Shown here in pieces: positions 5,940 through 58,757 of a stretch of 58,757 nucleotides of DNA. The notes beneath the pieces are model-generated. The model saw only the letters and a list, made by a program, of their open reading frames with translations. It did not search any database and was not told the origin of the DNA. The position numbers and the translations under genes are program-made. The stretch is from NCBI GenBank assembly GCA_021789915.1, contig JAJYIV010000004.1, positions 1 to 58,757 of the forward strand. Reading direction: 5' to 3'. How positions within the stretch are numbered: the first letter of the stretch is position 1; each line of letters begins with the position of its first letter. The DNA comes from a bacterium. Its GTDB lineage: Bacteria > Patescibacteriota > Patescibacteriia > UBA9934 > GWF2-40-263.

Positions 5940-8555
5940 ATGCCAGGCTACGACCATCAAGCCGTCGAAAAGAAATGGCAGGACGTCTGGGAACGCGAGC
6001 AGCCCGGCCGCGTCGAGGAGGATCCGGCGCGCGCGGCGGACGCGCTCTATCATCTCGTCATGTTTCCGTACCCGTCTGGCGCGGGGCTGCACGTCGGCCA
6101 CGTCGAGTCCTACACGGCCGTGGACATCCTGACGCGCTATCGCCGCATGCAGGGCAGGCGCGTGCTGTTTCCGATCGGCTATGACGCGTTCGGTTTGCCG
6201 GCGGAAAACTACGCCATCAAGACGGGCATGCCGCCCGCCGAAAGCACGGCGGCCAACATCGCGAACTTCCACCGGCAGATGAAGGCGCTCGGTTTTTCTT
6301 TCAGCTGGGAGCGCGAATTCGCCACGTGCGATCCGTCGTATTACAAATGGACGCAGTGGATGTTCCTCGAGCTGTTCAAGCGCGGGCTTGCCTATAAAAA
6401 GAAGGCGCCGGTCAATTGGTGCGAGAAGGATCAGACCGTGCTCGCCAACGAGCAGGTCGTGAACGGGGCGTGCGAGCGCTGCGGCACGCCGGTCGTGCAG
6501 AAGGAGATGGAGCAATGGTTCTTCGGCATCACGAAGTATGCCGACCGCTTGCTGAACGGTTTGGACGCGATCGACTGGCCGGAGAAGATCAAATCGATGC
6601 AGCGCAACTGGATCGGGCGTAGCGAGGGGGCGGAAATTGTCTTTTCTTGTCATCCTGAAGGAGCGCAGCGACTGAAGGATCTGTCGTCGGATCCTTCGCC
6701 TGCGGCTCAGGATGACAAATACTCGATCACTGTTTTCACCACGCGTCCCGACACGCTCTTCGGCGTCTCGTACGTCGTGCTGGCGCCGGAGCATCCGCTG
6801 GTGGACATCCTTACGGTTCCCGAAAAGAAAACGGAGATGGACGCGTACCGCGCCGCCGCGCGCGGCAAGTCGGAACTCGAGCGCACGCAGTTGGAGAAGG
6901 ACAAGAGCGGCGTGTTTACCGGAAGTTTCGCGACGCACCCGCTCACGGGCGAACCGGTGCCGGTGTGGGTCAGCGATTACGTGCTGACGACGTACGGCAC
7001 GGGCGCCGTGATGGGCGTCCCCGCGCATGACGAGCGCGATTTCGCGTTCGCGAAGAAGTACGGGCTGGCGGTGAAACAGGTGATCGCCAATCAGTTTGGT
7101 GTGAGAAAACCTGACGGTGATCTTTCTCCCGTCGAGTGTTATACCGGCGACGGACCTCTCATCAATTCCGGGGAATTCGACCGGCTGTCGAATCAAATCG
7201 CCAAGCATAAGATTGTTGAGAAACTTGCCAAGGAAGGGAAGGGCGCGGCGGTGACGAAGTACCGCCTGCGCGACTGGCTCGTGTCGCGCCAGCGCTATTG
7301 GGGCGCGCCGATCCCGATCGTTTATGATCCCGACGGGAAGCCGCATCCGGTGAAGGAGGAACATCTGCCGCTGCGTTTGCCGGAGGACGTCGACTATCTG
7401 CCGCGCGGCACGTCGCCGATCGGCTCGTCCAAGAGCTACGTCGCGCTGGCCGAGAAACTCTACGGCCCCGGCTGGCGCTTCGAGACGGACACGATGGACA
7501 CCTTCGTGGATTCCTCGTGGTACTTCCTGCGTTATTGCGATCCGAAAAACGCGTCGTCCTTCGCCGACCGTTCCAAGATCGATTACTGGTGTCCGGTGGA
7601 TTTGTACGTCGGCGGCGCGGAGCACGCGGTGCTGCACCTGCTGTACGCGCGCTTCTTCGCGTACGCCCTGCATGATGCGGGCCGCATCGGCTTCGAGGAA
7701 CCGTTCCTCGCGCTGCGCAACCAGGGCATCATCCTGGGCCCCGACGGGGAGAAGATGTCGAAGTCGAAAGGGAACGTCGTGAATCCGGACGAGCTCGTGG
7801 CCGAGTACGGCGCGGATGCGCTGCGGCTCTACGAGATGTTCATGGGACCGCTCGAGGACATGAAGCCATGGGACACGAAAGGCATCGTCGGCACGCGGCG
7901 GTTCTTGGACAAGGTGTGGAAGCTGGCGGAGCGCGTCACGGACGTGGAAAACATCTTGGCGCTTCGTCCCGTGCAGAAGACCATCAAGAAAGTGACGGAG
8001 GACGTCGAAGCGATGCGCTTCAACACGGCCGTGTCCGCGCTGATGGTCTGCGCGAATGTGCTGCAGGAAGCCGTCGCGGCCGACCCCGCCGCCGGCCGCG
8101 CACACCCCCCGCCTGCCGACGGACGGCCAGCAGGCAGCCCCTCCTTCGGCTTCGCTCAGGACAGGCCTTGGCAGGGGGGCAATGTCGGCCGGCAGCCTTC
8201 CCCTGATAAGGGGGGGATTCCTCGCAACGCATTCGGCGACTTCGTGCGCCTGCTCGCCGCGTTCGCGCCGCATCTGGGGAGCGAATTGTGGGAGCGCGCC
8301 GGGCTCGACGGCTCCGTCTTCGACGCCTGGCCGTCGTACGAGCCGACGCTCGTGCAGGACGAAACGGTGAAGATCGCCGTGCAGGTGAACGGCAAGCTGC
8401 GCGGGTCGATCGAGGTTCCCGCGGACGCGTCCGCGGACGACATCGTCGCGCAGGCCAAGTCCGAGCCGAATGTCGCCAAGCACCTCGAAGGGAAGACGAT
8501 CGTCAAAACGATTTTCGTGCCAGGCAAGCTCGCGAACTTCGTGGTGGGGGAGTGA
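5940..8555 (+). CDS. leuS: leucyl-tRNA synthetase with two repeat-derived insertions
   Basis: A class I synthetase that charges tRNA-Leu in the cytoplasm. At 871 aa it is near normal length. HVGHV (51-55, the HIGH motif) and KMSKS (605-609) are intact, and the editing-domain motif TTRPDTLFG and the discriminating DERD segment are present. Two stretches are foreign: residues about 236-261 (SCHPEGAQRLKDL...) at the entrance of the CP1 editing domain, and residues about 719-763 (proline/glycine rich, GFAQDRPWQGG) in the anticodon-binding domain. Both are translated copies of palindromic repeats that elsewhere lie between genes. The promoter places transcription start about 2 bases before the ATG. 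Confidence 0.97.
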   Translation: MPGYDHQAVEKKWQDVWEREQPGRVEEDPARAADALYHLVMFPYPSGAGLHVGHVESYTAVDILTRYRRMQGRRVLFPIGYDAFGLPAENYAIKTGMPPAESTAANIANFHRQMKALGFSFSWEREFATCDPSYYKWTQWMFLELFKRGLAYKKKAPVNWCEKDQTVLANEQVVNGACERCGTPVVQKEMEQWFFGITKYADRLLNGLDAIDWPEKIKSMQRNWIGRSEGAEIVFSCHPEGAQRLKDLSSDPSPAAQDDKYSITVFTTRPDTLFGVSYVVLAPEHPLVDILTVPEKKTEMDAYRAAARGKSELERTQLEKDKSGVFTGSFATHPLTGEPVPVWVSDYVLTTYGTGAVMGVPAHDERDFAFAKKYGLAVKQVIANQFGVRKPDGDLSPVECYTGDGPLINSGEFDRLSNQIAKHKIVEKLAKEGKGAAVTKYRLRDWLVSRQRYWGAPIPIVYDPDGKPHPVKEEHLPLRLPEDVDYLPRGTSPIGSSKSYVALAEKLYGPGWRFETDTMDTFVDSSWYFLRYCDPKNASSFADRSKIDYWCPVDLYVGGAEHAVLHLLYARFFAYALHDAGRIGFEEPFLALRNQGIILGPDGEKMSKSKGNVVNPDELVAEYGADALRLYEMFMGPLEDMKPWDTKGIVGTRRFLDKVWKLAERVTDVENILALRPVQKTIKKVTEDVEAMRFNTAVSALMVCANVLQEAVAADPAAGRAHPPPADGRPAGSPSFGFAQDRPWQGGNVGRQPSPDKGGIPRNAFGDFVRLLAAFAPHLGSELWERAGLDGSVFDAWPSYEPTLVQDETVKIAVQVNGKLRGSIEVPADASADDIVAQAKSEPNVAKHLEGKTIVKTIFVPGKLANFVVGE
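6647..6718. repeat. TTGTCATCCTGA...TCAGGATGACAA element inside leuS
   Basis: A 72-base element bounded by a 12-base perfect inverted repeat lies in frame in leuS (24 codons, no stop). Its ends match the TCATCC(T/C)GAG..GGATC repeats found in spacers at 45598-45660, 55190 and 58480. Confidence 0.9.
8097..8226. repeat. composite palindromic repeat inside leuS
   Basis: This segment combines a GCCTGCCGACGG-type element, CTTCGGCTTCGCTCAGGACAG, GGCAGGGGGG and a CCCCTGATAAGGGGG palindrome. The same pieces occur in the spacer before murA and at the start of the 27746 gene. The reading frame is kept across it. Confidence 0.75.
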
Positions 8556-11690: not shown

Positions 11691-12550
11691 CAGGATGCCT
11701 GCTCCTGGTCGCCGTCGCGCGCGCCGTCCAGGCGGGGGCGGCGGGTTTCTCCGCGGCCGGGGAGTGCCGCGTCTGGTTCTTCGACGTGGGCGAGGGGGAC
11801 GCGGCGCTCGTTGAGGCGCCGGACGGCGCGCGGTTTTTGATCGACGGCGGGCCGGATCGAAGCGTCCTTGCCAAGCTCGGCGACGCACGGCCGCCGTGGA
11901 GCCGGAGATTGGACGCCGTCGTGCTGACGCGCCCGTCGCCCGCGCGGGCGACGGGGCTGCTTGACGTACGGGCGCGGTATCCCGTCGGCGCCCTGTACGC
12001 GTCCGACGCGGCGGAGACGAACGCGCCGGCGCAGGCGCTCGCGTCCGCGCCGTGGCGCTTCGTGCACGCGGGAGACACGTTCGACGTGGGCGAGGCGCAC
12101 GTGGAGGTCCTGTCGCCGCCGGCCGTGCCGGCAGGAGTCAGAAGTCAGGAGTCAGGAGTCGGGGCGAGCGCCGCGAGCCAGCGCCCCGCAGATTCCGGCG
12201 CGGCGCTCTCGCTCGTGCTGCGCGTCACCTGCGGCAGCGCGCGCCTCCTCTTCACCGGCGACGCGCCCGCCGCCGTCGAGCGGCGGCTCATCGCGTCCGA
12301 TCCGCGCGCCGACGTGCTCGTGGTCGGCGCGCACGGCGGTCTCTCGTCGTCCGATCCGTCGTTCTTGGACGCGGTGCATCCCGCCGCAGCCGTCGTCAGC
12401 GCCGACGGGAGCGCCGGCCACCCGCATCCGGCCGTGCTCGAGCGCCTCGCCGCGCGCGGCGTGCGCACGTGGATTACCGCGCGCGACGGCGACGTGCTGC
12501 TGCGGGCGGCGGGGACGTGGTCGCTCGCGCCGCATCCATTGCCTTTTTAG
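11660..12550 (+). CDS. ComEC-type metallo-beta-lactamase domain, catalytic residues lost
   Basis: The 296-aa protein corresponds to the C-terminal domain of ComEC. It has an N-terminal hydrophobic segment, FFDVGEGDAALVEAP, FLIDGG, LLFTGDAP and a GHPHPAVLERL segment. The HxxxDH metal site expected after VVLT is replaced (LTRPSPARATGL), and the usual HHGS is AHGG. The nuclease function proposed for this domain is therefore probably absent. It overlaps comEC by 31 bases. An ORF of GTCAGGAGTCAGG repeats adds VRSQESGVGASAAS in the middle. Base composition is extremely GC rich. Confidence 0.75.
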   Translation: MALRSSFIGLTGCLLLVAVARAVQAGAAGFSAAGECRVWFFDVGEGDAALVEAPDGARFLIDGGPDRSVLAKLGDARPPWSRRLDAVVLTRPSPARATGLLDVRARYPVGALYASDAAETNAPAQALASAPWRFVHAGDTFDVGEAHVEVLSPPAVPAGVRSQESGVGASAASQRPADSGAALSLVLRVTCGSARLLFTGDAPAAVERRLIASDPRADVLVVGAHGGLSSSDPSFLDAVHPAAAVVSADGSAGHPHPAVLERLAARGVRTWITARDGDVLLRAAGTWSLAPHPLPF

Positions 12551-12612
12551 CCTTTAGCCTTTAGCCTTTAGCCGTCAGCTCGCGTATCTCGTCTAACCGT
12601 CTAATCGTCTTT
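12549..12612. repeat. TTTAGCC and GTCTAA spacer repeats before ndk
   Basis: Three tandem TTTAGCC units are followed by a CGTCTAACCGTCTAATCGTC repeat directly before the ndk start. Confidence 0.8.
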
Positions 12613-17780: not shown

Positions 17781-17882
17781 AAACCTTTAACCGTTAGCCG
17801 TTCGCACGCGAGCCTTTGGCCATTAGGGGAAACCGCGTACACCATCCTAAAAGCTAATGGCTAACGGCTAAAAGCTAACTGT
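17781..17882. repeat. TTAGCCGTTAGCC...GGCTAACGGCTAA inverted repeat
   Basis: The spacer is mostly an imperfect inverted repeat made of TTAGCC and GGCTAA units, ending 6 bases before the M50 protease start. Confidence 0.8.
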
Positions 17883-17888
17883 TTCAAC

Positions 17889-18563
17889 ATGTTCCTCGCT
17901 CTGCTGTTCCAAAACCCGGCGCTGTTTGTCGCCTTCCTTGCGGCCGTGCTCATTTCACTCACGCTGCACGAGTTCTCGCACGCGCTCGTCGCCCGCGCCC
18001 GCGGCGATCACACGGCCGAGCGGGAAGGCCGGCTCTCGCTCAATCCGTTCGCCCACCTCGATCCACTGGGATTTTTGGCCTTCCTGATCGTCGGCTTCGG
18101 CTGGGCCAAGCCGGTGCCGTACAATCCGTACAATCTCAAGGATCCGAAATGGGATGCGGTCAAGATCGCCTTGGCCGGGCCTGGCATGAACCTGATCCTG
18201 GCCGCCGTCTCCGCCGCCCTGTGGCGTCTGCTGTCGCCGTCGTTCGGCGTCCTGAACCTGCTCTCCGCCTTCCTGTACCTGATGGTGTTCCTGAACGTGA
18301 TGCTCATGGTCTTCAACGTCATCCCCGTGCATCCGTTGGACGGCTCCAAGCTGTTCTTCGCGCTCTTCGACGCGCCGAAATACGAAGGCCTGCGCCGCTT
18401 CGTCGCCGTGCGCGGCCCGCAAATCCTCATCCTGCTCGTCATCGTCTCGCTGTTCACACCGTTCAACCCGTTCTTTTTCGTGACCGATCCCGCCAACGCC
18501 CTGTGCTCGGCCTTCACGCGCACGGATTGTCTGAACATGGTGTACCAGCTGTTCGGAGGATGA
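17889..18563 (+). CDS. M50 (site-2 protease family) membrane metalloprotease
   Basis: A polytopic zinc protease of 224 aa. The catalytic HEFSH lies at the end of the first hydrophobic segment, LISLTLHEFSHALVARARGD, and the third metal ligand region is seen in NVIPVHPLDGSKL. LNPFAHLDPLGFLAFLIVGFGWAKPVPYNP is characteristic of the short, PDZ-less group. Members cleave substrates within the membrane; the substrate is unknown. The stop overlaps a possible ATG of the next ORF, but a terminator hairpin lies between the genes. Confidence 0.9.
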   Translation: MFLALLFQNPALFVAFLAAVLISLTLHEFSHALVARARGDHTAEREGRLSLNPFAHLDPLGFLAFLIVGFGWAKPVPYNPYNLKDPKWDAVKIALAGPGMNLILAAVSAALWRLLSPSFGVLNLLSAFLYLMVFLNVMLMVFNVIPVHPLDGSKLFFALFDAPKYEGLRRFVAVRGPQILILLVIVSLFTPFNPFFFVTDPANALCSAFTRTDCLNMVYQLFGG

Positions 18564-41966: not shown

Positions 41967-42040
41967 AAAGCCGTTAGCCGTTAGCCCTTAGCCATTCGGT
42001 GACGGGCTCAGGCTAAAGGCTAAAAGCTAAAGGCTAAAAG
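41967..42040. repeat. TTAGCC...GGCTAA inverted repeat before rplF
   Basis: GCCGTTAGCCGTTAGCCCTTAGCC faces GGCTAAAGGCTAAAAGCTAAAGGC across a short loop. The repeat ends about 7 bases before the rplF ATG. Confidence 0.9.
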
Positions 42041-42047
42041 CTTCTCT

Positions 42048-45491: not shown

Positions 45492-45660
45492 CCGCGGGTC
45501 GCACCGGAGGCGGCTACATCCTGAGGCCAGCAGGCCGAAGGATCCCGTGCGGGTCGCACCGGATGAGGTGACACCGCTGGCCTCAACGGAGGCGGTGTCA
45601 TCCCGAGCGCACCAGCGCGAGGGACCACGTCATCCTGAGCGCACCAGCGCGAAGGATCCC
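45491..45660. repeat. cluster of GGGTCGCACCGG / TCATCCTGAGCGCACC repeats after secY
   Basis: The first 55 bases (CGGGTCGCACCGGAGGCGGC...) are the near-exact reverse complement of the tandem unit at 58659-58757. Then two GTCATCC(T/C)GAGCGCACCAGC units follow. No gene is seen in the 239-base spacer. Confidence 0.85.
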
Positions 45661-46294: not shown

Positions 46295-46339
46295 CCGTGG
46301 ACAATCCGCGACGGTCTGTTATCCTGCGCACGGGAAGCG

Positions 46340-46404
46340 TTTAGCCATTAGCCATTAGGCGTTAGGACCGACCTAATAGCTAACGGCTAAAAGCTAAAGG
46401 CTCG
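46340..46404. repeat. TTAGCC...GGCTAA inverted repeat before adk
   Basis: TTTAGCCATTAGCCATTAGGC faces TAATAGCTAACGGCTAAAAG across a short loop and ends shortly before the adk start. Confidence 0.9.
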
Positions 46405-55149: not shown

Positions 55150-55250
55150 GGGACCTCTGAAAAACTCAGTTCTCGTCGAGCAATCTCCCCCGTGTCATCC
55201 CTCGCTGCGCTCGGGATGACACAAGAAGAGTTTTGCAGAGGTCTCAGACC
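55150..55250. repeat. GACCTCTG...CAGAGGTC palindrome with inner GTGTCATCCC hairpin
   Basis: GACCTCTGAAAAACTC faces GAGTTTTGCAGAGGTC, and inside it GTGTCATCCC faces GGGATGACAC. The element fills the scpA-scpB spacer and ends 3-4 bases before the scpB ATG. Confidence 0.9.
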
Positions 55251-58465: not shown

Positions 58466-58757
58466 GCCGGCCCGAATTTGTCATCCCGAGCGAAGCGAAG
58501 GATCTCGAGTATCATGCGCCGGAAGCCTCCGGCAAGCCCAACTTCATCTCGTCATTGGGTTGTAGAAGAATCCGCCGGCGTACCAAGACATACGAAAACG
58601 GAGAAACCGTCCGCAGACGACTCAAGAGATCCTTCGCCCCGCCTGCATGCAGGCGGGGCTCAGGATGTAGCCGCCTCCGATGCGACCCGCGGGATCCTTC
58701 GGCCTGCTGGCCTCAGGATGTAGCCGCCTCCGATGCGACCCGCGGGATCCTTCGGCC
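58466..58757. repeat. repeat-filled end of the window
   Basis: No gene is seen. It holds a TGTCATCCCGAGCGAAGCGA unit, a GCCTGCATGCAGGC palindrome and a tandem duplication of a 53-base unit (58659-58711 and 58712-58757, cut by the window edge) containing CAGGATGTAGCCGCCTCCGA. The unit is the reverse complement of the element at 45491-45545. Confidence 0.85.

Follow-up and report, generated by a model that had tools for sequence, protein, structure and literature searches.

A dispersed palindromic repeat lies in frame at the tip of an editing-domain hairpin in a patescibacterial leucyl-tRNA synthetase

The 72-nt segment at positions 6647-6718 (+ strand) of the window, the whole 58,757-nt stretch of bacterial DNA analysed in this study, is a full copy of a dispersed palindromic repeat family, as judged from its inverted ends, its fold z-scores and its copies in the genome. 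It lies in frame in the leuS gene, at codons 236-260 (CHPEGAQRLKDLSSDPSPAAQDDK). Very probably this is a palindromic repeat that is non-autonomous, mostly intergenic and similar to MITEs or REPs, and that was inserted at the tip of a hairpin in the CP1 editing domain of leucyl-tRNA synthetase (LeuRS) and tolerated there. Dozens of other genes in this genome carry in-frame repeats, and comparison of LeuRS sequences indicates that the same hairpin has been filled separately by several repeat families and by whole domains in related genera.

Results

The element and its host gene

The leuS gene was recognised from its open frame and translation at 5940-8555 (+ strand, stop included) and encodes 871 aa. 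Pfam matches of its product were to the editing domain, tRNA-synt_1 and Anticodon_1, and the best structure matches were the LeuRS of T. thermophilus and E. coli. The source genome is a draft of 41 contigs and 1.06 Mb. An earlier reading of the letters alone (the sequence-only reading) had described a 72-base element with 12-base inverted ends that introduces neither a stop nor a frameshift into leuS. The left end, TTGTCATCCTGA (6647-6658, + strand), and the right end, TCAGGATGACAA (6707-6718, - strand), are indeed perfect reverse complements of 12 nt, and the leuS frame runs through the element without interruption. Compared with dinucleotide shuffles, the single-strand fold of the element gave z-scores of -5.45 as RNA and -6.13 as DNA. 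Its composition is non-coding, with a hexamer score of -7.9 against +559 for the whole of leuS. An example of a predicted tryptic peptide spanning LeuRS residues 230-270 is DLSSDPSPAAQDDK.

The insertion site in LeuRS

In the CP1 editing domain, the element falls on the tip of the first beta-hairpin, according to both alignment and modelling. An AlphaFold2 model built with 46 diverse LeuRS had a mean pLDDT of 88.9 and a pTM of 0.84, and its best Foldseek matches were LeuRS structures (TM ~0.84). Both strands of the hairpin were retained in the model: the first at residues 227-238 (6618-6653, + strand; E227-238 in DSSP, with the turn placed by alignment to T. thermophilus LeuRS, 1h3n), and the second at residues 261-267 (6720-6740, + strand), leading into the conserved editing motif TTRPDT (residues 267-272). 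By sequence, neither this motif nor the conserved aspartates of PAHDERD are disrupted. At the position of the element, T. thermophilus LeuRS shows a short turn, and the alignment has a gap. The insert itself was modelled with low confidence (pLDDT 54-62) and no ordered structure. The model thus agrees with the suggestion of the sequence-only reading that the insertion lies near the start of CP1 in a surface loop, and such a loop appears compatible with the LeuRS fold. The same reading had also stated that exactly 24 codons were added. Although the element does amount to 24 codons, the hairpin is 34 residues long here, compared with 15-20 in most insert-free relatives (15 in most LeuRS), so that the net gain is only about 14-19 residues; about five native turn residues seem, from the alignment, to have been lost or overwritten.

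For the presence of the insert, 59 genomes from the same family and order were examined; the nearest of them belong to other genera, and the comparison was made at the protein level. A LeuRS match was obtained in 59/59 genomes, with an overall identity of 56-64%. None of the LeuRS sequences read from the relatives shared the insert residues; of 54 LeuRS from the order, that of the source genome alone contains them. Ancestral residues present in all relatives and unlike any repeat, the result that would have told against an insertion, were therefore not what was observed: the residues are unique and match repeats of their own genome.

Copies of the repeat across the genome

When the element was compared with its own genome, 24 matches reached E<=0.001; among full copies, the two closest were 93% and 91% identical. 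The end motif GTCATYCYGA of this first family occurred 97 times in the 1.06-Mb genome, while the reversed control gave 0 matches. Elsewhere in the window the motif was found at 45597, 45629, 55211 and 58480, each time between called genes, in keeping with the intergenic matches to the element ends noticed in the sequence-only reading. These sites correspond to two left halves (the D14 copies) at 45597-45660 (+ strand) and to half copies at 55165-55222 (- strand) and 58478-58520 (+ strand), all intergenic. Many intergenic gaps of the window also contain a short tandem family distinct from this one (AGCCNTTAGCC / GGCTAAAAGCTAA), for example at 2599-2628, 12549-12578, 17845-17895, 41969-42047 and 46336-46401, among others. 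Searches with the element matched no Rfam family and no plasmid; a search of viral sequences returned 10 viral contigs of uncertain origin.

Copies were sorted as genic or intergenic with a simple coding model trained on the fetched surroundings of the repeats. In these fetched stretches, full copies of the first family measured 60-114 nt and were in the majority intergenic. Copies well within genes were found in leuS, tgt, miaA, miaB and truB, and copies at 3' ends in grpE, dnaK and rmlD. The in-gene copies are entered in phase 1 or 2, and their length class fits the entry phase. Those in leuS, tgt, miaA, miaB, truB and grpE are always left in phase 2, which gives QDDK or QDDN ends, or NDT in grpE. 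The inserts of tgt, miaA, miaB and truB align to short loops or to alignment breaks in solved structures. Fourteen of 20 intergenic full copies (L081-L118) had a length of 3n+1 even though they are non-coding, a skew missing from the G004 and G022 lists. In-frame first-family copies were also seen in another genus (G025; L264 and L266), in genes named from sequence context as UvrB-like and IleRS-like.

A second repeat in leuS and in-frame repeats in other genes

A second in-frame repeat, rich in proline and glycine, occupies leuS residues ~716-758 (about 8085-8215, + strand) and defines a second family with 31 matches in its own genome. This insertion (~46 aa) was absent from the LeuRS of all the relatives, and residues 718-756 were modelled as disordered (pLDDT <50). 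Its fold was no better than that of shuffled sequences (z 0.22). In the fetched stretches, the second family lay within genes at 26/30 sites, against 4/17 for the first family, with a coding fraction of 0.84.

Self-comparison of the 377 kb fetched around repeats yielded 142 repeat blocks, 49 of them within genes, counts that thus come from stretches chosen for their repeats; two or three of the 49 were protein-level repeats. Blocks at the KMSKS region of MetRS and in FG-GAP sequences were such protein-level repeats and were rejected as insertions. Genes with in-frame repeats include those for IleRS and ValRS (both named from Pfam class and context), CysRS, MnmA, KsgA and GatC, as well as QueA with three insertions (L256, 1598-2986). 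Two insertions each were found in TruB (L100, 2284-3150) and ValRS (L113, 5731-6900). Other repeat-bearing genes encode GreA, UvrC, SecA, GyrB, YebC, YceG and an EF-Tu-like GTPase (LepA by context). In the last of these (L252, 1843-2526), a 48-aa repeat insertion directly precedes a motif of 11 residues. Genes related to tRNA made up 11/35 repeat-bearing ORFs and 2/40 length-weighted random ORFs (p = 0.004, a post hoc comparison).

The same hairpin in related genera

The CP1 hairpin exceeded 20 aa in 24/54 LeuRS of the order as against 6/80 diverse LeuRS (p = 1e-6, with related species not independent), and two of the latter six also came from candidate-phyla genomes. In several relatives the hairpin contains a repeat of the host's own genome: a copy of GTCATTCTGA in G051, a GTCATTGYGAG repeat in G022 (59 motif copies, control 0), a CTTCGACNNGCTCAGG repeat in G004 and G031 (132 and 44 motif copies, control 0), and a CCCTCCTT palindrome in G010 and G040, with a variant in G021. 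A Moranbacteria LeuRS carries the first family there in another frame (VILNEAERNEESRKNKTRSFANAQDDK; 75 motif copies in the genome, control 2). Controls for the hairpin repeats of relatives were all at or near 0. The inserts are mutually unrelated, and each of them reflects the repeats present in its host genome. One candidate, GTCATCCTGA in leuS of G001, was rejected, as ordinary coding sequence (QDDR) was judged to match there by chance. In genus g5 (L142, L144 and L146), reading of the sequence by eye, where automatic alignment was not clean, showed an apparent nesting of the G004/G031 copy in the remains of a GTCATTG palindrome of the G022 type. Further palindromes were seen elsewhere in leuS of G022.

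Whole domains occupied the same hairpin in other relatives (L119, L120, L123, L127, L137, L143 and L153). These were an ASCH domain (G003/G029), a Ham1 domain (G047), a serine hydrolase domain (G044/G036/G041) and, in G005, a DUF559 nuclease with short palindromic repeats on both flanks. Two further LeuRS loops of relatives, near residues 387-391 and 466, held Nudix, hydrolase or unknown domains, or repeats (L132, L133, L140, L145, L125, L126, L135 and L124). An 85-aa domain common to L125, L126 and L135 had no Pfam match when L126 was searched.

Discussion

Origin of the insertion

In the mechanism proposed here, a repeat of about 60-110 nt would multiply in a reduced genome, mainly between genes, and one copy would have entered the first CP1 hairpin of leuS at its tip. 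This copy would have survived because it has no stop in the frame that it entered, because its length restores the frame, and because the hairpin tip faces the solvent. The catalytic and editing cores of LeuRS would be kept, and the enzyme would carry a flexible loop of 24 residues. The hairpin would be one of a few tolerant loops in this lineage, so that the same site was filled independently by other repeat families and, in certain related genomes, by entire domains. We infer a transposition-like spread, translation of the loop and a near-neutral effect on LeuRS.

The possibility that a REP/BIME element moved by a REP-associated tyrosine transposase (RAYT) was caught by chance in leuS fits the palindromic, dispersed and mainly intergenic character of the family and its double-hairpin halves, and one Y1_Tnp hit was indeed present in the genome. 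That sole hit, however, was partial, IS200-like and located at a contig end. Across 59 genomes, motif counts did not correlate with Y1_Tnp counts (Spearman -0.03), and four genomes rich in the motif had no Y1_Tnp at all (G042, 126 copies; G025, 111; G039, 59; G012, 37). A target-site duplication was sought at 27 full copies, and no excess over the control was found for k = 2-9. Since Y1 transposases do not track copy number, RAYT does not appear to be the driver, which makes this explanation improbable. Adaptive insertion, in which the loop is held by positive selection, for example through altered editing or tRNA contacts, is rated slightly lower still. The repeated gain of sequence by this hairpin in related genera, entire enzyme domains included, and the excess of tRNA enzymes among repeat-bearing genes might be expected under selection, but the mutual unrelatedness of the hairpin inserts, each drawn from the repeats of its genome, argues against it, as do the non-coding composition of the insert, its lack of order in the model and the many unrelated genes that also bear repeats (SecA, GyrB, UvrC and YceG).

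Misplacement of the repeat into leuS by a short-read assembler would be conceivable in a draft of this kind, as assemblers fail at repeats. Such a chimera is very improbable, given that the frame is exactly restored in leuS and likewise in the tgt, miaA, miaB and truB copies, and that in-frame repeats arise at the same hairpin independently in several other assemblies. There is next to no likelihood that these are ancestral LeuRS residues resembling a repeat by chance. Some relatives (g15) do have a hairpin of 28-29 aa with ordinary sequence, but the near-identical full copies elsewhere in the genome, the excess of end motifs over the control and the confinement of the insert residues to this one LeuRS refute it. 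Insertion of a tolerated palindromic repeat is therefore the explanation that we prefer.

A bolder extension, which we put forward tentatively and regard as doubtful, is that the CP1 hairpin in this order has been a gateway to new multidomain enzymes. A selfish repeat might lengthen and disorder the loop, after which whole domains (ASCH, Ham1, serine hydrolase or DUF559) could enter; the nested repeat of g5 and the palindrome-flanked DUF559 of G005 would then be intermediates that are still visible.

Significance and comparison with known repeat systems

Protein-coding palindromes are known mainly from Rickettsia and its relatives. The same process would be operating here at high density, through several repeat families unrelated to one another, in a small-genome lineage akin to the candidate phyla and apparently close to Parcubacteria, to judge from genome size and named neighbours. 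In genus after genus it has returned to a single loop of an essential enzyme, which would constitute a natural record of stray DNA becoming protein. Comparison alone could test where in a protein random peptide is accepted, and whether junk loops are a first step to new domains. Caution is also indicated in annotation, as such loops in annotated proteins may be recent DNA and not conserved sequence. A search of the open-access literature gave no earlier description of insertions of this kind in LeuRS from the group.

Among known systems, the short and mostly intergenic palindromes of REP/BIME with RAYT are similar in form, but the element described here has no RAYT association and has in-frame coding copies. 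Correia/NEMIS, ERIC and RU MITEs are likewise small and non-autonomous, and their ORFs can become joined in frame to those of the host (PMC2229807, PMC2759123). The element shares with MITEs its terminal inverted repeats, its small size and the lack of a transposase ORF; most of those families are listed with target-site duplications, whereas none was detected here. Protein-coding palindromic repeats outside Rickettsia were described in Wolbachia (Ogata et al. 2005, as cited in PMC2229807), and by that description they are alike in being protein-coding repeats beyond Rickettsia.

The closest parallel, already drawn in the sequence-only reading, is with the Rickettsia palindromic elements (RPE; Ogata et al. 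2000, 2002; reviewed in PMC10969869, PMC2229807), which are 105-146 (about 150) nt long with inverted ends listed as 12 bp, and of which one, in guanylate kinase (gmk), was reported to be translated and to leave the enzyme active (PMC10969869, PMC2229807). Both are small dispersed palindromes with inverted ends, inter- and intragenic, open in the frame entered, found in conserved proteins and without an autonomous enzyme; here the frame is free of stops in leuS, tgt, miaA, miaB and truB, and the leuS site is a hairpin tip. The present element differs in its length (60-110 nt) and in its phylum, in the occurrence of two or more unrelated families in one genome, the second mostly intragenic, and in that the loop of one enzyme has been struck repeatedly across genera. 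The parallel holds for the behaviour, that of a repeat tolerated in frame, and the analogy drawn is one of mechanism only.
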